A stretch of 64,000 nt of DNA, from contig NZ_JDTH01000002.1 of the NCBI RefSeq assembly GCF_000710615.1, forward strand, positions 1,294,082-1,358,081, given 5' to 3'. Within the stretch, counting starts at the first letter, position 1. Every line of letters starts with the position of its first letter. The notes beneath the pieces were generated by a model, which was not told the origin of the DNA, made no database searches, and saw only the letters and a program-made list of their open reading frames with translations. The position numbers and the translations under genes were made by a program. Positions 100 through 10,024 of this stretch are shown here, one piece after another. This stretch comes from Haladaptatus cibarius D43 (GTDB lineage: Archaea; Halobacteriota; Halobacteria; Halobacteriales; Haladaptataceae).

Positions 100-1230
100 A
101 TGTACGACGCCATCGTCGTCGGCGGCGGCATCGTCGGCGCGTCCGTCGCGTATCACCTCGCGCGGGAGGACGCCGACACGCTCCTCATCGACCGACACGA
201 CGAAGGACGCGCGACAGATGCGGGCGCGGGAATCATCTCGCCAGCGACGAGCAGTCGAACCGCTTCGTCCGTCTGGTTCGAGTTCGCGCTCAACGCCGCG
301 GCCTACTACCCGACGCTGAACGACCGACTGACCGACGAACAAGAAGGAGACACCGGCTATTCTTCCTGCGAACTCCTCTCGGTCGCCGTGGACGAAGACG
401 AGGTTGTGGACTTCGACGCCGCCACCGAACGCATCGAGAACCGGCAGGAAAAGTACGGGGAACCGAAACCCGGAACGACGACCGAACTGTCCGCAGACGA
501 GGCCCAAGAGAAATTCCCCGCGCTCGCCGAAACCGAGCGATGTCGCGCCTACAGCGACGCGGCACGGGTGGACGCCCAAACGTTCACCGCGGCACTGCTC
601 CGAGCCGGGGAACAGCACGGACTCACCGTCGCAGAACAGGACGTGACTAAAGTTCGTCACGAAAACGGAAGCGTTTCCGGCGTCGAAACCGCGAATGGCG
701 ACAGCTACGAGGCAAGCAACGTCGTCGTTGCTGGCGGCGCGTGGTCACCGCGGTTCGAGGAGTCGCTCGGCGTTTCGATTCCGGTCGAACCACAGCGCGG
801 CCAAATCATCCATCTGGACTGCCACGACACGGATACCAACGATTGGCCCATCGTCGGCGCGTTTCGCGGCCACTACATGGTCCCGTGGGTGGACAACCGA
901 ATCGCCGTGGGTGCAACCCGAGAAGTCGATTCGGGATTCGAACCGCGAACCACGGTGGGTGGCGTCAACGAGGTGCTAACGGAGGCTCTTCGCGTCGCAC
1001 CCGGACTCGAAGACGCGGAAATCGAGGACGTTCGAATCGGACTCAGACCACGCTCTGCCGACCAACTGCCGGTGTTGGGGCCGATTCCGACCGTCGAAGG
1101 CGTTCATCTGGCGACCGGCCACGGCGCGACGGGGCTTCAGCTCGGGCCGTACAGCGGGAAGTTGGTTGCAGATACTGTTCTCGGCGAACCAATGGAAAAA
1201 GAGCAGTTCAACGTGAATCGGTTCGAATAG
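100..1230 (+). CDS. FAD-dependent amine/amino-acid oxidoreductase (DAO family)
   Basis: A 376-residue protein that opens with a Rossmann FAD-binding fingerprint (VVGGGIVGASVAYHLA, residues 6-21) followed by an acidic strand end (LLIDRH). The C-terminal ATGHGATGLQLGP segment is the usual second FAD/substrate-side motif of the DAO fold. The family includes glycine/sarcosine oxidases and D-amino-acid dehydrogenases, which oxidise C-N bonds with FAD. Length is typical. There is no signal peptide, so it is cytosolic. It is convergent with the lanthipeptide synthetase gene, with a 37-base gap. The substrate cannot be read from sequence. A role in lanthipeptide tailoring is possible but unsupported. 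Confidence 0.85.
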   Translation: MYDAIVVGGGIVGASVAYHLAREDADTLLIDRHDEGRATDAGAGIISPATSSRTASSVWFEFALNAAAYYPTLNDRLTDEQEGDTGYSSCELLSVAVDEDEVVDFDAATERIENRQEKYGEPKPGTTTELSADEAQEKFPALAETERCRAYSDAARVDAQTFTAALLRAGEQHGLTVAEQDVTKVRHENGSVSGVETANGDSYEASNVVVAGGAWSPRFEESLGVSIPVEPQRGQIIHLDCHDTDTNDWPIVGAFRGHYMVPWVDNRIAVGATREVDSGFEPRTTVGGVNEVLTEALRVAPGLEDAEIEDVRIGLRPRSADQLPVLGPIPTVEGVHLATGHGATGLQLGPYSGKLVADTVLGEPMEKEQFNVNRFE

Positions 1231-1267
1231 TGTCGGTTGGGGGCATGTCGATGAAGCGGGCTGATGC

Positions 1268-4200
1268 TCACTCCCACAGCATGACACACGGCAGTTCCGG
1301 GTTGTCAAGTCGAAGCAACGAATAGCCGATGCCGGACTCGCCGAGGAAAAACGTTGGGTTGTACCAGTCTTCGGTCTGCCACGGAACCGTGTACTGGCCT
1401 ATCGTTTCCGCACGCTGGACGGCCGACCCGGCCAACGCTCTGGCCGATTCCCGATATTGCTCTTCATCCAGCGTTCTTCCGGCCCGTAACAGGAACTCCA
1501 CGCGACCGAAATTGCCACAGCATACATGGTCACGGTCAACGAGCGTGGTTGGGTCGGTTCCGCGAAGCGCGTGTTCGACCTCCTGCCGAAACCCGCTATC
1601 GGGTTCTGCGTTGGGTTCGATTTCGAACATGCCGAGGCGTGCTAACCCGATTCCGGCCCGCCCGGAACACCATCCGGTCACGAAGTCCGTGTCGGTCAGC
1701 AGTCGGCGGTCGGGCCAGTTGTTCCGCTCCGGCGAGAACGATTCTCGCTCGAATCGAATGCCTTCGACCGCGGCATCCCGAAACCGAGAGTGGCCACTCG
1801 CATCGGCGAGTTTGAACAGAGAATACGCGATACCGGCGATTCCGTGGGAAAAACCGGTGAGCGCCTGCACGTTGTTGATGGTGTGCCAAACGAGAACCCC
1901 GTCCTCCTCGATGCGGTTCGAACAGAGATGGTCTCCGGCGATAGTGGCTCGCTCCAACACCGCCTCGTCACCGGTTTCCTCGTACAGCGCCAGTAGTCCC
2001 AATATCACGCCAGCAGTGCCGCCGAGCGCGTCGAACAGTTCGTCCTCCTCGATTCGTTCGGGAGTTAGTATCGCGGCGATTTCCTCCGCCGTTCGGATGT
2101 ATTCGTCGTCAGATAGCAGTTGTCCGACCTTCGTACAGCCGTAAATCAGCGACCCGATTCCGTGGCCTGCACCGACCCTATCGTCGGAAAACGGGTTTCC
2201 CTTTTCGACATCCAGTCGGTCGATGAGCGGTGCGACGACGTCGGCGGTAAATTGCCGATACTCGTCTTCTCCCGTAACGTTCGCCAGCGCGGCGCTGAAC
2301 ACGGCAATCCCAATTCGACCCTCGTACAGGTCTTCTATCAGTCGATGGAAATAGATGCCGCCGTTTCGGTGTTCGCGGAGGTGCCACGTCACAGAGTCAT
2401 ACGGCGTCGTGCGTTTGTGGTTCCGGATTCGATCGAATATCTCCCGCGACCGTCGTCGAAACAGGTCGGCACTCGCGGGGGTCGTCCGTCCATCAGTTTC
2501 ATCACCAGTCTCGGTTTGGGAGCGTGGCGGCGTGGGATGTGAAATCTCTTCCTCCGCATACGCCAACTTGAAGTAGTCGAGTTGGTTTCGCAAATCCGAT
2601 TCGCCGAACTCGTTGATTCGGTCACGAACCTGCTCGATGGGCGTCGTTTCGAAGACGTCTTTCACGGCCTGGCCATCGTGGCGTAACTTGGTATCGGTCG
2701 CATTGACAGTAAATCGCGGAATGTCGAACCGCCACATTGCGGTTCGTTCAGCCTCGTACACGTCCCACATCTCCTCCCCGACGGTTTCCTCGGTAAACGG
2801 TCGAGCCAACAGTTCCACCTTGCAGCCGAATTTCAGGCCGGTTCGGAGGTACGCAGGCGTGGTGGCCGGAACGAGCGTCCTGCCGTAAATCTTCGTAGAG
2901 CGGTAGAGAAACCGGACTTCCGTCCCCTCGAACAGTGCTATCGGCCCGTCCTCCGCGAGAATTTCCGCCCGGTTGTCGAGGAAGAACCGGTACATCTCCT
3001 CGAAACCGCCAATGAGGGGATCGGCGTGGTTTTCCGGCGTGATTCGATCGCCGTCGAGGAGTGGAAGACTCTCGCCTTCGATGGTTCGCGTGTCCCGATA
3101 GTCGAGTTCCATGATGTCCGTGTTGACGTCAGAGAACTCCGGAATCTCGACGCCGGTTGCTTCTCCCTCCTCGGCACCGAGGCCGTCGATACGCTGAATG
3201 TCCGATGACGGCAGATACATCGGAAGGACACGCATCCGCAGAAGTGACCCGTGGACGAGGTCGTACATTTCGTTGCCCGCGGTTCGTTTGTCCGCTGCAA
3301 GGACGGGTTCGAGAACCGTTTCGAGGTCAACGACGACCGGTTGGTCGCCTACCGCGACGATGTTCTCCAGATGGCCGTCGGTGAAGTTGAGCGCGTACAG
3401 GATGGCCAACAGCATCCCCGAACGTCGGTAGTAGTCGTCTACCTCCGACTGGGCCGAACACGAATCGGATTCGACCCACTCCTGCCAGCCGTACGTTTCG
3501 CGTGGCAGGCAGGTGAGCGTCCGAACGTTCGGGAGGTCGGCGGCGTCGTTCACCCATTCGAGAAAGTCGTAAAACGCGGTGTCGATACGCATATCGCGGG
3601 GCTTGTATGCGGTTTTCGTTCCGGATTCGAACGTGACGCCGAGAACCGTCTTCCCGCCCTGATGCGGGTCGCCGAGGAAGTCGATGTCCGTTACCGGCCC
3701 GAGGTCGCCGTCGGAACCGAACGTTTCGTTGAGGGCGGTTCGGTCGGCAGCGAGGTGCGAACTAAACGATTCGACGGCGTCGATCCACTGTCGAACGAAC
3801 GTGATGAGCAGTTTCGACAGAACGGCATATTCGATGCAAAACGACCGCAGGCCGCCCTGAGTCAGAGTCTCCGTGAAAGAATCGTAATATTTTCGCGGCG
3901 AACTCGGCCTGTCGGGATTCTCCGCCACCGCGAGTTCCGGGTCGCGTGCGGCGATGAATCCCTTGAACTCGATGAACAGCGGATGCGCGAAAATGGTGTG
4001 AAATCGGTCGAGAAGCCACCGCTTGAACGCATCTACCGCCGGTTCCGGTGTTTCCCTCCAATCGACTTTCTCAGACGCGTATTCCACGAGAACGTTCAGA
4101 AAATGGGCGAACGGAACGTCGTCCGTTCTGAGCGGGTCGTCCACCGAAGCCACATCGGTCGCCTCCACGAACAAGAGGAGTTCGTCCAATTGGTCTACCC

Positions 4201-4462
4201 ACGCGGGAAGGGCGTCGTCATCCGACCAATCGGTCATCTGAATCCGACGGCGACACTCGGCCACAGAGAGGCCAGCGATTTCGAGACGTTTCTGAAACGG
4301 GTCTTCCTCGCCGTCCGCAACCCGGGCACGCCATTCATCCATCCAGTCGTCAGGGTTTTCGACAACCTCCCGTGACAGGTCGTCTGACGACGTTCGAAGT
4401 CGGTCGTGCAGTGTTTTGGCTCGGACAGCGACTCGTTTCTTTTCTTCGGTGGTCAGACTCAT
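1268..4462 (-). CDS. lanM: Class II lanthipeptide synthetase LanM (CCG type)
   Basis: A 1064-residue bifunctional enzyme that dehydrates Ser/Thr of a precursor peptide and then adds Cys thiols to form (methyl)lanthionine. The N-terminal kinase-like dehydratase (DUF4135) keeps a YKPR lysine (near K287), a DGHLEN catalytic segment (D362, N367) and a VDLET metal-binding segment (D379). The C-terminal LanC-like cyclase shows the HGIAG repeat motif and the putative zinc ligands WCSG (near C932) and VCCGN (C981, C982). The last motif is CCG rather than the common CHG, as in cyanobacterial ProcM-like enzymes with three Cys zinc ligands, which are known for substrate tolerance. Length matches full LanM. 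The gene lies 115 bases downstream of a small peptide gene on the same strand, its likely substrate. I see no LanT protease-transporter nearby. Confidence 0.95.
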   Translation of the reverse strand: MSLTTEEKKRVAVRAKTLHDRLRTSSDDLSREVVENPDDWMDEWRARVADGEEDPFQKRLEIAGLSVAECRRRIQMTDWSDDDALPAWVDQLDELLLFVEATDVASVDDPLRTDDVPFAHFLNVLVEYASEKVDWRETPEPAVDAFKRWLLDRFHTIFAHPLFIEFKGFIAARDPELAVAENPDRPSSPRKYYDSFTETLTQGGLRSFCIEYAVLSKLLITFVRQWIDAVESFSSHLAADRTALNETFGSDGDLGPVTDIDFLGDPHQGGKTVLGVTFESGTKTAYKPRDMRIDTAFYDFLEWVNDAADLPNVRTLTCLPRETYGWQEWVESDSCSAQSEVDDYYRRSGMLLAILYALNFTDGHLENIVAVGDQPVVVDLETVLEPVLAADKRTAGNEMYDLVHGSLLRMRVLPMYLPSSDIQRIDGLGAEEGEATGVEIPEFSDVNTDIMELDYRDTRTIEGESLPLLDGDRITPENHADPLIGGFEEMYRFFLDNRAEILAEDGPIALFEGTEVRFLYRSTKIYGRTLVPATTPAYLRTGLKFGCKVELLARPFTEETVGEEMWDVYEAERTAMWRFDIPRFTVNATDTKLRHDGQAVKDVFETTPIEQVRDRINEFGESDLRNQLDYFKLAYAEEEISHPTPPRSQTETGDETDGRTTPASADLFRRRSREIFDRIRNHKRTTPYDSVTWHLREHRNGGIYFHRLIEDLYEGRIGIAVFSAALANVTGEDEYRQFTADVVAPLIDRLDVEKGNPFSDDRVGAGHGIGSLIYGCTKVGQLLSDDEYIRTAEEIAAILTPERIEEDELFDALGGTAGVILGLLALYEETGDEAVLERATIAGDHLCSNRIEEDGVLVWHTINNVQALTGFSHGIAGIAYSLFKLADASGHSRFRDAAVEGIRFERESFSPERNNWPDRRLLTDTDFVTGWCSGRAGIGLARLGMFEIEPNAEPDSGFRQEVEHALRGTDPTTLVDRDHVCCGNFGRVEFLLRAGRTLDEEQYRESARALAGSAVQRAETIGQYTVPWQTEDWYNPTFFLGESGIGYSLLRLDNPELPCVMLWE

Positions 4463-4541
4463 CGTGGAAAATGCACTATGTTTGAAATATGGAAACTACG
4501 TCAGTATGGTACACAGACTGAATACAGCAATCGAGGAGATA

Positions 4542-4559
4542 CAGCACCGAACGGTACTG
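4542..4559 (-). promoter_or_regulatory. Possible hairpin between precursor and synthetase genes
   Basis: On the minus strand CAGTACC-GTTC-GGTGCTG can form a 7-bp stem (one G-U pair) with a four-base loop. It lies between the stop of the precursor peptide gene (4578) and the lanM start (4462). Such a stem could attenuate or process the transcript so that the peptide is made in excess over the enzyme. Only the symmetry is seen; the function is inference. Confidence 0.3.
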
Positions 4560-4577
4560 GCTCCTACCACTGCTCGC

Positions 4578-4727
4578 TTACTGAAGTTGCGTGTTGCAAC
4601 TGTTGAACCCACACGAGTCCGGTGCGGCGGCGTCGTGTTCGAGTTCGTCGATGGTTGGCTCATCGCGCGCGTATTTGTCTTCGAACTGTGCTTTGAGGTC
4701 GTTCGTTGGCATGCTTGTTGCGGACAT
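4578..4727 (-). CDS. lanA: Candidate lanthipeptide precursor peptide LanA (49 aa)
   Basis: A small ORF directly upstream of lanM on the same strand, too short for routine gene calling. The 49 residues comprise an acidic, Cys-free leader (residues 1-36, containing PTIDELEHDAAAP) and a short core, DSCGFNSCNTQLQ (residues 37-49). The core holds the only two Cys (39, 44) plus Ser38, Ser43 and Thr46, so up to two thioether rings are possible. This leader/core split and the adjacent LanM fit a class II precursor. The leader lacks an obvious GG cleavage site; AAAP or a nearby site is a guess. An in-frame ATG at 4739 would add four residues, and an internal ATG encodes Met6. A TATA-like box lies 24-33 bases upstream of 4727. 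Confidence 0.75.
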   Translation of the reverse strand: MSATSMPTNDLKAQFEDKYARDEPTIDELEHDAAAPDSCGFNSCNTQLQ

Positions 4728-4750
4728 AACCAAATTCATATAGTTATCTA

Positions 4751-4760
4751 TATGTATTAA
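4751..4760 (-). promoter_or_regulatory. TATA-like element for lanA-lanM
   Basis: Read on the minus strand, TTAATACATA lies 24-33 bases upstream of the lanA ATG at 4727. This is the usual distance for a leaderless or near-leaderless haloarchaeal transcript. The surrounding 4735-4860 stretch is much more AT-rich than the flanking genes and must also contain the promoter of the divergent MFS gene. Confidence 0.4.
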
Positions 4761-4863
4761 GTATTTCTATCACTGAAATAGAACCTATATGAAAGTCTTA
4801 AGATTTTATTATTATATGGGAAATAGTGTGTTTTTTATATTGCTGTAGATACGTAACGTGTAG

Positions 4864-6189
4864 ATGGGTGTATCACTACCGAAATTCATGGGCGGTCTTC
4901 GCTCGAATACGGCGTTCACGCGGCTATTTTTGGGCCGAATCGTCACCAACGCGGGCGACAGCATGTACGCAATCGCCGCGATGTGGCTCGTGTACGACCT
5001 CACCGGCTCTCCGTTCTATACGGGACTCGCCAGTTTTCTCGTTCGAGTGCCGACCGCCCTTCAGTTTCTCGTGGGGCCGCTGGTTGACCGATGGCCGCTC
5101 CGGTCGTTGTTGGTGGGTACGCAACTCATACAGGGCCTCTGTGTGCTGGCAGTTCCCATCGCGGCGGCGGTTGACTTGCTTTCCGTCTGGTTGGTTCTGC
5201 TGGTCATGCCTCTCTTGACCTTTCTCAACCAGTTCGTCTATCCGGCCCAACAGGCGACCCTTCCCCGAATTCTCGATGATGACGAACTCATCCGGGCGAA
5301 CTCTCTGTTCTCGTTCGCCTACCAAGGTCTTAACATGGTCTTCAACGCGGCCAGCGGGGTACTCATCGCAGTCATCGGGGCGGTGGCGCTCTATCTGGTC
5401 AACGCGGCGACGTTCGCCGTCGCCGTCGTCCTCTTCCTTGGACTGAAAATTCCGGATGTCGCCCAAAGCGCGGATGGAGGGGACGAAAGCGACGAGACGG
5501 AGGGCGCTGAATCTACGGACTCCACGGAATCCACCGAAGAGTCGGACGATGACAACTATTTCGTTCGACTCCGCGAAGGGCTTAGCTACGTCCGTGGCTC
5601 CGTCCTCCGTGCGCTGATATTCGGTGGCATCATCGTCAACTTCGCATACGGCGTGATGATTGCCGTCCTTCCGGCCTTCGCGGCAACCCGCGGTGGTGCC
5701 GAAGCGTACGGTCTGTTCATGGCCGCGATGGCCGCCGGAAACCTCGTCGGCGCGATGGCGGCACCGGTCGTAGACGACTATCCGTTCGGGTGGATTACCA
5801 TCGTCGGCTACGTGCTCTCCGCGGTCTGCTGGATTGGCGTGCTCACCGTGACGTGGTTCCCGGCGTCTATCGTGTTGTTCTTCTGCACGTTCGTGCCTAT
5901 CGGAGCCGCCAACGTGGTACTCCATTCGATGATACAATCCACGGTACACGATTCCCTCCTCGGACGCGTCTCTTCCGTCAACGCAAGCCTGAGCACGGTG
6001 ACCCTTCCGGTCGGGTCGCTTCTCGGCGGGACGCTCGCAACGACGCTCGGCAGTGCGACGGTTATGTCCGGATTGGCAATCGCATTGCTCAGCCTGAGCG
6101 TCTATTTTCTCGTCCGACCGAAACTGCGGACGCTCCCGCCGGTCGGAGAGGCCGACGAATCAATTCTCGACTTCGATAAAAATATCTAA
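4864..6189 (+). CDS. MFS transporter, likely exporter of the lanthipeptide locus
   Basis: A 441-residue major facilitator protein with about 12 membrane segments. It has the MFS_3/EntS-like start (FTRLFLGRIVTNAGDSMYAIA) and the LVGPLVDRWPLRSLL loop after helix 2. A long acidic Ser/Asp/Glu-rich linker (near residues 203-228) separates the two six-helix halves. The family mainly exports small amphiphiles, siderophores and drugs by proton antiport. It is divergent from lanA-lanM and shares their AT-rich intergenic region, and no ABC-type LanT is present. Export of, or immunity to, the modified peptide is therefore a reasonable inference. ATG at 4864 is chosen; a TATA-like TTTTATTATTATAT sits about 50 bases upstream. 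Confidence 0.85.
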   Translation: MGVSLPKFMGGLRSNTAFTRLFLGRIVTNAGDSMYAIAAMWLVYDLTGSPFYTGLASFLVRVPTALQFLVGPLVDRWPLRSLLVGTQLIQGLCVLAVPIAAAVDLLSVWLVLLVMPLLTFLNQFVYPAQQATLPRILDDDELIRANSLFSFAYQGLNMVFNAASGVLIAVIGAVALYLVNAATFAVAVVLFLGLKIPDVAQSADGGDESDETEGAESTDSTESTEESDDDNYFVRLREGLSYVRGSVLRALIFGGIIVNFAYGVMIAVLPAFAATRGGAEAYGLFMAAMAAGNLVGAMAAPVVDDYPFGWITIVGYVLSAVCWIGVLTVTWFPASIVLFFCTFVPIGAANVVLHSMIQSTVHDSLLGRVSSVNASLSTVTLPVGSLLGGTLATTLGSATVMSGLAIALLSLSVYFLVRPKLRTLPPVGEADESILDFDKNI

Positions 6190-6235
6190 ATTTATCGTAG
6201 AAAATTTAATAACATAATATTATAAACTACATACA

Positions 6236-7522
6236 ATGATTCACGTTGGAATCTCCGATGAGGGGATGCCAGACTTCCCACTCAAGAAGTTGGATAACGG
6301 ATACGTCGTTCCGGACGCATCCGTGGCGGACATCCATCGCGCCCATCGACGCCAAACCCGAAATCAGGTTGCACTCGCGGTCGAGGCCGAAGAATTGGGC
6401 TACGATTACGTCGTCCATCCGGAACACCACGTCTCGCTTCAGGATGCTAACTCACCGAACCCGATTCTCACGCAGACCGCCGTCGCGGCGCAGACGGAGC
6501 GCATTCGTCTACTCCAAATGGCGAACATCCTATCGTGGCACGAACCGGTTCGACTGGCCGAGCAAATCGGAATGCTCGACAACATCAGCGACGGCCGAGT
6601 TGAGGTTGGCGTCGGACGGAGTTCTACACCCCTCGAATCGAGCGTTTTCGGGCAGTACTGGGGCGGGTCGGCACAGAATGATGTCAAAGACCAGCAATCG
6701 TTCGAGGAGAAGTTCGAACTGCTGTTGAAGGCATGGACTGAGGAGTTCATCACACAGCACGGCCAGTTCCATCGCGTTCCGCCGTCGTACACAGAATGGG
6801 AAAACAATCAGGAGTATCACTACCTGATGGACGAGGCGAGCGAAAGCGACCCGAGCGAGTATATGCAGGTGGACGCCGGAACGGGCAAAACGACGCTGAA
6901 ATCCGTGCCCGTCATGCCGCAACCGATGCAAAAACCGCATCCACAACTCTGGAAACCTGCGGGGTCTGCGCGCTCCGCGAGGCAGATCGCCGCACAGGGT
7001 TTCAACGCCTGTTGTCACTGTACGACCTTTTCCGCGACGAAGGAACTCGTCGAGCAGTATCACGACGCAACGGAAGAAGCGGGCTGGCCCGACCACCGAC
7101 CCGAGTACGACGGCGAGCCGTTGCGTAAGGGATGGGACGGTGACCGCCGCCGCGGCATCGCCGCAATTCTCGGGGTGTTCAACACGGACGTTGCCAGCGA
7201 AGAAACGTTCGAACGATGGAAACGCAGTCAGGAGTTCGCCTTGAACCGAAAGAAGGGGTCGAAACCGCCCGAAGAACCAAGGGCTGTCGAAATCGACATC
7301 GAGGAGAAACTGGCGGAGGTAGATGCACCGCTCGTGGGCGACACGGAGGAGATAATCGACCAACTCGCCACGTTTTGGGAAACCTGCGGCTATGAGGATT
7401 TCGTCGTTTTCGTGCAGACGAAAATCACCGGGATGAGCCACGAGGAGAACGTCGAACAACTCCGTGCGTTCGCCGAGGACGTGGTACCCCACTTCAAAGA
7501 ACAGACCCAAGTGTACCAGTAG
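6236..7522 (+). CDS. Luciferase-like flavin monooxygenase, copy 1
   Basis: A 428-residue protein of the bacterial luciferase-like (LLM) family, a TIM-barrel enzyme using FMNH2/F420-type reduced flavins with O2. Family features include EELGYDYVVHPEHH near residues 50-63, the LAEQIGMLDNISDGRVEVGVGRS segment near 110-130 and the late KPHPQLWKPAGS motif. It has no signal peptide. It begins 46 bases after the MFS gene, behind an AT-rich stretch likely to hold its own TATA box. It is followed by a paralogue in the same orientation. One block (6785-6957) is almost identical to copy 2 while the flanks are clearly more diverged. The substrate is unknown. Confidence 0.85.
   Translation: MIHVGISDEGMPDFPLKKLDNGYVVPDASVADIHRAHRRQTRNQVALAVEAEELGYDYVVHPEHHVSLQDANSPNPILTQTAVAAQTERIRLLQMANILSWHEPVRLAEQIGMLDNISDGRVEVGVGRSSTPLESSVFGQYWGGSAQNDVKDQQSFEEKFELLLKAWTEEFITQHGQFHRVPPSYTEWENNQEYHYLMDEASESDPSEYMQVDAGTGKTTLKSVPVMPQPMQKPHPQLWKPAGSARSARQIAAQGFNACCHCTTFSATKELVEQYHDATEEAGWPDHRPEYDGEPLRKGWDGDRRRGIAAILGVFNTDVASEETFERWKRSQEFALNRKKGSKPPEEPRAVEIDIEEKLAEVDAPLVGDTEEIIDQLATFWETCGYEDFVVFVQTKITGMSHEENVEQLRAFAEDVVPHFKEQTQVYQ
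6785..6957 (+). repeat. Near-identical tract shared by the two LLM genes (copy A)
   Basis: These 173 bases match 8158-8330 with only four differences that I can count (at 6872, 6876, 6928 and 6931), including an 87-base perfect run (6785-6871). The immediately preceding bases show several mismatches per 40. Such a sharp identity block inside otherwise diverged paralogues is the usual trace of gene conversion. Confidence 0.8.
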
Positions 7523-7608
7523 CCGACTGCTCGGTTCCGATTCGGTGGAAAGAATATAGCTCTAAATTATAGCTAAATTTAAATTGATGGTTTAGAGTAT
7601 TTACATCA

Positions 7609-8889
7609 ATGGCACAGTTTGGCGTGGCAAACGAGGGAATGCCCGACTATCCGCTCAAGAAGCTGGAAAACGGATACGTCGTTCCAGACGTTTCCGTCGC
7701 AGAGATTCATCGGACACATCAACGGCAGACGGGGAATCAGGTCGAGTACGCGGTTCTCGCCGACAAGCTCGGCTACGACTACGTGCTCCAACCAGAGCGT
7801 CACTTCACTCTACTCGGCCCGGTATCGCCGAATCAACTGCTCATCCACACTGCGGTTGCGGCACGAACCGAAAACGTTCGCCTCCTCCAGATGGCGAACA
7901 ACCTCCCGTGGAGCGAACCGGTTCGACTGGCGGAGCAAACCGCCATGTTGGACATCATCAGCGATGGCCGAGCGGAAATCGGCATCGGACGCGGTTCCGA
8001 CCCAAGAACGACGGCGATTTTCGGGCAGTACTGGGGCGGGTCGAAGCGGAACTTCATGAAAGACCAGCGGTCGTTCGAGGAGAAGTACGAACTGCTGTTG
8101 AAAGCGTGGACCGAGGAGTTCGTCACGCATCACGGCGAATTTCATCACGTCCCGCCATCGTACACAGAATGGGAAAACAATCAGGAGTATCACTACCTGA
8201 TGGACGAGGCGAGCGAAAGCGACCCGAGCGAGTATATGCAGGTGAACGTCGGAACGGGCAAAACGACGCTGAAATCCGTGCCCGTCATGCCGCAACCGAT
8301 ACAGAAACCGCATCCACAACTCTGGAAACCCGCCGCATCCGAGGGATCCGTGAAGTGGGCCGCCCGCCACGGCGTCAACGGCTGTACGTTCGGCAACTCG
8401 TTTTCTGGGGTCAAAAAGCGAATCGACCAGTATTACGACGCGGCGGAAGCGGCGGGCTGGCCCGACCACCGGCCCGAATACGACGGCGAACCGTGGCGCA
8501 GAGGGTGGGACGCGGAACGCAATCGCGGAATGGTCGGCATGCTCGGCGTGTTCAATACGGAAGTCGCAAGCGAGGAGACGTTCGAACGATGGAAACTGGG
8601 GCAGGAGTTCAACTTGAGCAACATCAAAGGGATGAAACCGCCAGAACAGGCGAAAAACTTCACCATCGATGCGGAAGCGATGTTGGAGGAAGGGGACGCA
8701 CCAATCGTCGGAGGTTCGGAGGAGATAATCGAGGGATTGGTCGAATACAGGGACGTCTGTGGTTACAAGGATTTCATCGTCATCCCACTGATGAAGGCGG
8801 TCGGCATGACCCACGACGAAAGCGTCACGCAACTCCGTGCGTTCGCCGAGGACGTGATGCCGTACTTCGAAGAACAATCGGCGACGTAA
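7609..8889 (+). CDS. Luciferase-like flavin monooxygenase, copy 2
   Basis: A 426-residue paralogue of the preceding gene with the same layout: KLGYDYVLQPERH, LAEQTAMLDIISDGRAEIGIGRG and KPHPQLWKPAAS. The proteins are similar end to end, with divergence concentrated around the GVNGCTFGNSF region (against FNACCHCTTF in copy 1) and the C-terminal third, which could alter substrate choice. ATG at 7609 follows an 86-base AT-rich spacer with TATA-like sequence, so it may be transcribed separately. It is convergent with the SolA-like oxidase, with a 10-base gap. The family is known for flavin-dependent oxygenation; the actual reaction is not predictable here. Confidence 0.85.
   Translation: MAQFGVANEGMPDYPLKKLENGYVVPDVSVAEIHRTHQRQTGNQVEYAVLADKLGYDYVLQPERHFTLLGPVSPNQLLIHTAVAARTENVRLLQMANNLPWSEPVRLAEQTAMLDIISDGRAEIGIGRGSDPRTTAIFGQYWGGSKRNFMKDQRSFEEKYELLLKAWTEEFVTHHGEFHHVPPSYTEWENNQEYHYLMDEASESDPSEYMQVNVGTGKTTLKSVPVMPQPIQKPHPQLWKPAASEGSVKWAARHGVNGCTFGNSFSGVKKRIDQYYDAAEAAGWPDHRPEYDGEPWRRGWDAERNRGMVGMLGVFNTEVASEETFERWKLGQEFNLSNIKGMKPPEQAKNFTIDAEAMLEEGDAPIVGGSEEIIEGLVEYRDVCGYKDFIVIPLMKAVGMTHDESVTQLRAFAEDVMPYFEEQSAT
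8158..8330 (+). repeat. Near-identical tract shared by the two LLM genes (copy B)
   Basis: Partner of the tract at 6785-6957, with about four mismatches over 173 bases. It encodes the YTEWENNQEYHYLMDEASES region and the KPHPQLWKP motif, which are identical at protein level apart from small changes (DAG/NVG and M/I). Confidence 0.8.
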
Positions 8890-8899
8890 GGGTTTGTTC

Positions 8900-10024
8900 T
8901 CAAAATCTATCCAGCGAGAACAAGTCGATGTCGTGGCGACTCTTACCGTCGATGGCCAGTTCGGCCAGAATCTCGCCGACCACGCTCGACAGTTTGAATC
9001 CGTGGCCCGAAAACCCCGCGCCGACGACGACCTGCGGGTGGTCGGGAAGCGCGTCGATGATGAAATGCTCGTCGGGCGAGTTCGTGAACAGGCAGGTTTC
9101 CAATCGCATCGTCGGCCCCGCAGCGGTGGGGAAGTAACGCTCCGTAAATTCGCGGAGAACGCGCTCGTCGGCCCGATTCGGTTCCGCCATCTTATCTGGG
9201 TTCACCTGTTCGTGGAAATGGTTGTACTTCCCCACTTTGTAGCCCGGTATGCCGTACTCCGGGAAGCCGTAGAAGTAGCCCTCCTCGCAATCGAGGATGA
9301 AAACCGGAAACGATTCGGGGCAGAACTGGTCGGGCGATTCCGGTTGAAACCAGCCGAGAACTTGTCGTTCCGGAATTGCTTGCGATTGCAGCATTGGGAG
9401 CAGGTTTTTCGCCCACGCGCCCGCCGTGACGACCATGGTGTCAGCGGTGCAGCTTCCTTTGTCGGTTTCGACCATAACGCCGCCGGAAGACGTCGGTTCC
9501 CAGTCGAGCACCGCCTCGCGGGCGCGAATCTCCGCACCGTGGCGATGGGCCGACGCGACGTGCGCGACGACGCACTGCTCGACGTGGAGGAATCCGCCGT
9601 CGGGTTCCACGACGGCCACGAAGTCCTCGGGGAGGTCGTAGCCGGGGTAGCGTTCGCCGACTTCCGCCGCCGAAAGCAGTTCGTAGTCGATATCGTGTTC
9701 TTCGCAGGATTCGCGCGCACCAGCGACTTTCTCGCTCCCTTCCGGGCCAGCGACGACGCACCCCGTCGTGTGCAGGAGTTGCGTCGGATGCTTCTCGTCC
9801 AGTTCGTGCCAGAGGTCGTAGGCACGAGAGAGAAGCGGGACGTAATCCGGATGTTCGTAGTACGCTTTCCGGATGATTCGCGTCACGCCGTGCGACGACC
9901 CCTTCGCGTGGGGCACGTCGTAGCGTTCGAGTCCCAGCACTCGCTGGCCTCGTTTTGCGAGGTGGGAAACCGCCGCGCTTCCCATGCCGCCGACGCCGAC
10001 GACGATGGAATCGTAGTGAGTCAT
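8900..10024 (-). CDS. SolA/MTOX-like monomeric sarcosine/N-methyltryptophan oxidase
   Basis: A 374-residue FAD oxidase of the monomeric sarcosine oxidase family. It has an N-terminal Rossmann motif (VVGVGGMGSAAVSHLAKRG), the GSSHGVTRIIRKAY segment near the flavin, and a Cys in METCLFTNSPDEHF at the position used for covalent FAD attachment in MSOX/MTOX. The final GAGFSGHGFKLS motif is typical. It oxidatively demethylates secondary N-methyl amino acids or opens related amines, yielding H2O2. ATG at 10024 fits the family N-terminus. It is convergent with the LLM pair. A second DAO-type oxidase lies at the window start. Confidence 0.88.
   Translation of the reverse strand: MTHYDSIVVGVGGMGSAAVSHLAKRGQRVLGLERYDVPHAKGSSHGVTRIIRKAYYEHPDYVPLLSRAYDLWHELDEKHPTQLLHTTGCVVAGPEGSEKVAGARESCEEHDIDYELLSAAEVGERYPGYDLPEDFVAVVEPDGGFLHVEQCVVAHVASAHRHGAEIRAREAVLDWEPTSSGGVMVETDKGSCTADTMVVTAGAWAKNLLPMLQSQAIPERQVLGWFQPESPDQFCPESFPVFILDCEEGYFYGFPEYGIPGYKVGKYNHFHEQVNPDKMAEPNRADERVLREFTERYFPTAAGPTMRLETCLFTNSPDEHFIIDALPDHPQVVVGAGFSGHGFKLSSVVGEILAELAIDGKSRHDIDLFSLDRF

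Follow-up and report, generated by a model that had tools for sequence, protein, structure and literature searches.

A putative class II lanthipeptide cluster of Haladaptatus cibarius that combines a two-dyad precursor with luciferase-like flavin enzymes

A stretch of 64,000 nucleotides from Haladaptatus cibarius D43 (the window; contig NZ_JDTH01000002.1, positions 1,294,082 to 1,358,081 of the forward strand) contains five genes that we consider likely to form a single class II lanthipeptide cluster, in which a peptide made by the synthetase LanM would be exported by an MFS transporter and tailored by two luciferase-like enzymes, LLM1 and LLM2. The existence of archaeal lanthipeptides, and their action on other haloarchaea and on motility, have been shown only recently. 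What appears to be new here, as judged from sequence, is an archaeal class II cluster that has both a dedicated clade of luciferase-like enzymes and a core peptide with two Ser-Cys dyads. The locus adds a recurrent cassette consisting of LanM, a two-dyad precursor, an MFS transporter, and a luciferase-like enzyme. An earlier note on this DNA, made from its letters alone, had described a two-gene locus of LanM and peptide; that pair stands, and the MFS gene and two LLM genes of the same insertion had been overlooked. The features are listed below, and the loci and genomes used for comparison carry the prefixes L and G.

1224..8912: insertion or deletion that sets the limits of the cluster, flanked on either side by an FAD-oxidoreductase (DAO) gene, the two being convergent; defined by the empty site in G005.
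1268..4462, minus strand: lanM, class II lanthipeptide synthetase, 1064 amino acids; from Pfam and NCBIfam matches, the WCSG/VCCG motif, and the LanM tree.
4578..4739, minus strand: lanA, precursor peptide gene; leader and core kept ahead of the related LanM genes of G035 and G178, with an excess of third-position differences.
4581..4619, minus strand: predicted core peptide DSCGFNSCNTQLQ; DSC-x3-SC kept in the window, L053, and L058, and GSC-x3-[ST]C in L089.
4740..4863: divergent, AT-rich intergenic region (25% G+C); presumed, from its composition, to hold the promoters for lanA-lanM on the minus strand and for MFS-LLM on the plus strand.
4864..6189, plus strand: MFS transporter, 441 amino acids, presumed to serve in export or self-protection; from PF07690/PF05977, its homologues, and its place inside the insertion.
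6236..7522, plus strand: LLM1, luciferase-like flavin enzyme, 428 amino acids, presumed to act in tailoring; from PF00296, the LanM-linked clade, the insertion, and a fold nearest to RslO1.
7609..8889, plus strand: LLM2, tandem paralogue of LLM1, 426 amino acids; from PF00296, the LanM-linked clade, and the insertion.

The limits of the cluster are set by its absence from related genomes. In the sister genome G005, the flanking FAD-oxidoreductase genes adjoin one another, and the missing interval, 1224-8912, contains exactly the five cluster genes, with flanks that match at 89-92% nucleotide identity. The segment is likewise missing at the syntenic site in the other congeners (8 of 8, G005 included). 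In G006 and G007 the right-hand FAD gene is also mostly or wholly gone, and in G001 about 0.8 kb of unrelated DNA lies between the flanks. We found no large repeats or mobile-element ends at the edges of the segment. The empty site separates the luciferase-like enzymes from the flanking FAD oxidoreductases, and we therefore reject the idea that the two are partners. Because the empty site is clean, the boundaries of the cluster are known, and the whole could be transferred into Haloferax volcanii as a single 7.7-kb piece. The locus opens to test both the action of a luciferase-like enzyme on an archaeal lanthipeptide and the question of whether Ser-Cys dyads pair mutually or internally.

Relatives of the luciferase-like enzymes, counted at E < 1e-60, occur in only 12 of the 392 genomes surveyed from the order, as 14 genes. 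Half of these genes (two each in the window and G035, one each in G178, G018, and G250) lie beside a LanM gene, in varying order and direction. With linkage to LanM defined by gene position and not by sequence, the seven linked enzymes, from five genomes, form one clade with a support of 100/100, and the 10 unlinked ones, two of them from Actinomycetota, form the other (Fisher p 5e-5). A search across the class revealed no additional genome in which such an enzyme is linked to LanM. A putative LanM near the luciferase-like gene of Pseudonocardia (L104) was rejected, as its 24% match lies in a sugar-ABC-transporter/dehydrogenase region. MFS homologues are present at the window, G035, G178, and G018 loci and at two more LanM loci (L110 and L133); identity to the window protein is 50-52% in L053 and L058 and 44% in L087. 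It is the empty site, this co-occurrence, and the phylogeny of the luciferase-like enzymes that lead us to assign MFS, LLM1, and LLM2 to the lanthipeptide cluster.

Dehydration and cyclization by LanM proteins are established chemistry of the family. As the earlier note had read from its motifs, the LanM of the window is intact in both halves: YKPR, DGHLEN, and VDLET are all found, the cyclase carries WCSG and VCCG, and the Pfam matches to DUF4135 (dehydratase, 352 bits) and LANC_like (cyclase, 180 bits) are both complete. The NCBIfam model TIGR03897 matches with 772 bits (cut-off 304), and PF13575, PF05147, and TIGR03897 all exceed their cut-offs, which identifies the protein as the bifunctional LanM of a class II cluster. 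Its zinc motif is VCCGNFG, with CCG replacing CHG, placing it among the CCG-type synthetases with a ProcM-like zinc site; CCG is likewise present in most other archaeal LanMs whose motif our pattern captured. The closest LanMs, among 59 related and 392 order-wide genomes searched, are those of G035 (48% identity) and G013 (46%), and our LanM tree comprises 53 proteins. Transporters of the LanT type, with a peptidase domain that cuts at a double-glycine-type site, are common, not obligatory, in class II clusters, and none of the five cluster genes encodes one. Archaeal lanthipeptide clusters are reported to depend on proteases encoded outside (PMC12144867). Haloarchaeal class II lanthipeptides, short precursors, and CCG-type LanMs are already known (PMC10105419, PMC12144867, PMC10027976), the lanthipeptides themselves from experiment.

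The precursor gene lanA sits 115 nucleotides upstream of lanM on the same strand. Consistent with what had been noted earlier, it encodes a short acidic peptide that ends in DSCGFNSCNTQLQ, with two Ser-Cys pairs and no Cys elsewhere. Three ATG codons could serve as the start, at 4739 (53 residues, the longest), 4727 (49 residues), and 4712 (44 residues); the homologues begin with MSTN, MSES, MSAT, MSAN, or MPTN, which makes the starts at 4727 and 4712 both plausible and preferable to that at 4739. The boundary that yields a 13-residue core is one that we infer. The leader motif LK-x2-FE-x2-Y-x-R-x2-P is common to open reading frames (ORFs) upstream of related LanMs in other haloarchaeal genera. 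Searches with tblastn place a lanA homologue, MSTNGTRDLKAQFEGKYARAEPTITQSTPKDSCGSESCNDGVSE, directly upstream of the LanM of G035 (the metagenome-assembled genome Halobacteriales archaeon QS_1_68_20; E 2e-10), and three tandem copies upstream of that of G178 (Natronobiforma cellulositropha JCM 31939; E ~1e-5), ending in PKDSCWSSSCN, PKDSCWSSSCGA, and VPDSCWSSSCN. Two ORFs upstream of the G013 LanM have the same leader and different cores (PPTLTMGCGSY and PPTLYNCGH); the cores ETGCSFSEDHCPDCSTY and EAGCSFSESICPDCSIA belong to a second locus of G035. Together, these comparisons indicate a conserved leader and a core that differs from cluster to cluster, with one core type recurring. The conservation upstream of related lanM genes that the earlier note had proposed to look for is thus present, with the DSC-x3-SC core kept in two relatives.

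Further support comes from the pattern of substitution and from background DNA. In ungapped blocks aligned between lanA and its relatives, third codon positions hold 27 of 41 nucleotide differences (binomial p 2e-5). A chance match to DSC-x3-SC is rejected, as the [ST]C-x3-[ST]C motif near the C terminus is found in 0 of 718 acidic small ORFs of background DNA. As in other class II clusters, the precursor lies beside lanM and has a Cys-poor, conserved leader followed by a core of Ser, Thr, and Cys. Given the conservation of leader, core, and position in three genera, the proposal that the lanA peptide is the substrate of LanM is well supported at the level of sequence. Two other suggestions, that the precursor is unusually short and that its small rings are novel, are not supported: published archaeal LanAs have a median length of 51 residues (PMC12144867), and the six-residue sallan A2 (CTRYSF) and the adjacent Ser-Cys ring of archalan gamma are already known (PMC10105419, PMC12144867).

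To relate core type to luciferase-like enzymes, we surveyed 62 LanM loci for small acidic ORFs with [ST]C-x3-[ST]C no more than 22 residues from the end. This core is present at 4 of 6 loci with a luciferase-like gene (the window, L053, L058, and L089) vs 3 of 56 others (L069, L110, and L113). The association has a Fisher p of ~9e-4, for which the second group was counted as 55 loci instead of 56; in the first group, the window, L053, and L058 are mutually related (87% support). These three have DSC-x3-SC in common. L089 carries the most weight, since its LanM is far from that of the window in the tree and its leader is different, and the locus has a dyad core nonetheless: five tandem short precursors (L089:4172-5351) carry GSCVSDSC, GSCISGTC, GSCVSDSC, GSCTSDTC, and GSCVCDSC, one of them with four Cys. 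L110, which has the motif and an MFS gene without a luciferase-like gene of its own, is from the same genome as L089 and groups close to the window clade, at the end of a very long branch. The loops between the dyads diverge (GFN, GSE, WSS, VSD, ISG, TSD, and VCD), with the spacing constant throughout.

From these observations, we propose that LanM would bind the acidic LanA leader, dehydrate Ser2 and Ser7 (perhaps also Thr10) of the core DSCGFNSCNTQLQ, and add both Cys thiols, forming an inner Cys3-Ser7 ring inside an outer Ser2-Cys8 ring. A protease encoded outside the cluster would remove the leader, the MFS protein would export the product, and LLM1 and LLM2 would contribute a flavin-dependent tailoring step, with oxygenation likelier than reduction. 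Other haloarchaea are the probable targets of the product. A bolder reading, which we advance tentatively, is that the luciferase-like enzymes represent the first flavin monooxygenases of Archaea to be dedicated to lanthipeptides and, with LanM, would give a new class of product, a minimal nested-hairpin [ST]C-x3-[ST]C lanthipeptide that carries an oxygenation (e.g., a hydroxyl group on the backbone or a side chain, or a thioether converted to its sulfoxide), enzyme and core type having spread together between unrelated haloarchaea. Several points weigh against the main proposal. Two loci with a luciferase-like gene, L087 (WCSITA type) and L088 (ACLYDSAVCDT), have different cores, and three motif-bearing loci lack such a gene, so the pairing of core and enzyme is not strict; the motif itself was defined after inspection of the data. 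The LLM1 model is of moderate confidence (pLDDT 76), the choice of cofactor is not settled, and tiny rings of the kind discussed below are possible. What the sequences show directly is the gene content, the conserved precursor, the joint inheritance, and the limits of the cluster; the chemistry, the ring topology, the function of LLM1 and LLM2, and the activity of the product are all deduced from its genes.

A fold search with the LLM1 model finds its nearest match in the flavin monooxygenase RslO1 (7bip, E 7e-21) and in luciferases, with F420 enzymes at ~2e-13. Profile and fold searches together place LLM1 closest to flavin monooxygenases (RslO1 7bip, 2i7g, and luciferases) and farther from F420 enzymes, and it is on this basis that we lean, without strong confidence, toward an oxygenation. 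A precedent for thioether oxidation is GarO of the actagardine cluster in Actinoplanes, a luciferase-like monooxygenase that forms a sulfoxide. Like the enzymes here, GarO belongs to a class II lanthipeptide cluster; it is bacterial. Less probable, though a serious contender, is a reductive role in which these enzymes, instead of oxygenating the peptide, convert leftover dehydroalanine and dehydrobutyrine to D-alanine (D-Ala) and D-2-aminobutyrate (D-Abu) in the manner of the LanJC enzyme of birimositide. LanJC enzymes, which belong to PF00296 and are encoded in lanthipeptide clusters, were proposed to convert Ser to D-Ala (PMC7268733; SprOR in PMC7794033), and a PF00296 enzyme within a lanthipeptide cluster is what we find here. 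Nearly all cores linked to a luciferase-like enzyme have at least one Ser or Thr in excess of the number of Cys residues (Thr10 in the window), but such a surplus is common in any lanthipeptide, and one linked core of L089 has more Cys than Ser and Thr. In contrast to the bacterial LanJC enzymes (birimositide BrtJC and SprOR), for which reduction of dehydroalanine to D-Ala is proposed, LLM1, LLM2, and their linked relatives fall in an archaeal clade of their own, and by profile and model the luciferase-like enzymes are more similar to FMN monooxygenases, which are the nearest solved structures, than to F420 reductases, LanJC being compared by its published description.

In its haloarchaeal CCG-type LanM, the cluster resembles those of archalans alpha-gamma, sallan, ciblan, pellan, litlan, medlan, and larlan (PMC10105419, PMC12144867), and it shares with archaeal class II lanthipeptides a short acidic leader and a core of ~6-14 residues in which Cys often precedes its Ser/Thr partner. 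Its core differs from the published archaeal cores quoted in those two papers, the main texts of which make no mention of luciferase-like enzymes. By analogy with known products, the peptide is probably a nested double-thioether hairpin, with Cys3-Ser7 enclosed by Ser2-Cys8. The three-residue spacing that stays fixed across divergent loops suggests that the two dyads pair with each other, and for this reason we prefer nested rings to two independent tiny ones. In larlan, two Thr-Cys dyads pair reciprocally (Thr2-Cys10 and Thr9-Cys3), and in sallan A2 (CTRYSF), the smallest product at six residues, the Cys1-Ser5 ring is a C-x3-S ring like the predicted Cys3-Ser7 (PMC12144867). Archalan alpha, GCGFTCSPFSSW, has rings at Cys2-Thr5 and Cys6-Ser10 (PMC12144867, PMC10105419). 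In the DADC lanthipeptides larlan and medlan (PMC12144867), two [ST]C dyads pair reciprocally across a loop that is longer than the one here and is cut, and the rings number three; the core here is a predicted sequence with two dyads at a constant distance. Closure of each dyad on itself, to give two separate rings of the three-atom class (Ser2-Cys3 and Ser7-Cys8) as the earlier note implied, is unlikely: the adjacent Ser2-Cys3 ring of archalan gamma is a precedent (PMC12144867), but the exact spacing in every dyad core linked to a luciferase-like enzyme would then be needless, and both the reciprocal pairing in larlan and the ring verified in sallan A2 argue for the nested hairpin.

We regard it as improbable that the MFS and luciferase-like genes came in as passengers, or as a catabolic unit of their own, when a lanthipeptide cluster of two genes was inserted. 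Relative to lanM, they do vary in order and direction from locus to locus, and other LanM loci manage without them. However, the co-occurrence with LanM is repeated in five genomes despite the rearranged order, the LanM-linked enzymes form their fully supported clade, and all genes are present or absent together at the site. Although a CCG-type LanM can show promiscuity and may modify precursors from distant genes (PMC10027976), it is very improbable that the lanA ORF is spurious or not the substrate and that the real precursor lies elsewhere, since leader, core, and position are conserved in three genera with an excess of third-codon-position differences.

In the divergent gap between lanA and the MFS gene, TTTATAWA is not present; scans for promoters and terminators of the bacterial type gave nothing informative, the models being bacterial and the host an archaeon.

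The same genome has two further LanM loci, L066 (G000:C1) and L067 (G000:C12), for a total of three. The precursor of L066 (L066:9351-9551) ends in ASCYLPCHTASKLPCCDTTN, and its last 11 residues, ASKLPCCDTTN, fit ciblan A1, published with Ser2-Cys6 and Cys7-Thr9 rings and one dehydrobutyrine (PMC12144867). G035, which is 81% complete, has 14 LanM matches, several of them fragmentary. A lone 45-residue C-terminal remnant of a LanM, 60% identical to that of the window, is present in a congener far from the DAO1/DAO2 site (L065:8137-8265; G008:C1:613136-613270) and is a relic of a lost relative.

Several observations concern the luciferase-like genes and their neighbors. An Eis-like acetyltransferase gene lies 3' of lanM in the two closest clusters (L053:3984-5192 and L058:5825-7027) and not in the window; the two proteins match Acetyltransf_9, Acetyltransf_17, and SCP2_2, are 40% identical to each other, and possibly represent an extra tailoring function. 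The cluster of G018 may be decaying, as its LanM is split over two frames (residues 82-623 and 707-1064); it has two precursor-like ORFs (L087:8664-9324) that end in DNWCSITA and DAWCTITATKE. In three genomes of the Halorussus group (L093, L094, and L095), an unlinked relative lies within an open frame of ~975 residues, apparently fused with another domain. Finally, LLM1 and LLM2 are 66% identical, and a 300-nucleotide patch of their genes (window 6645-6944 and 8018-8317) is 90% identical vs 71-78% in the remainder, a pattern suggestive of gene conversion between the two neighbors.

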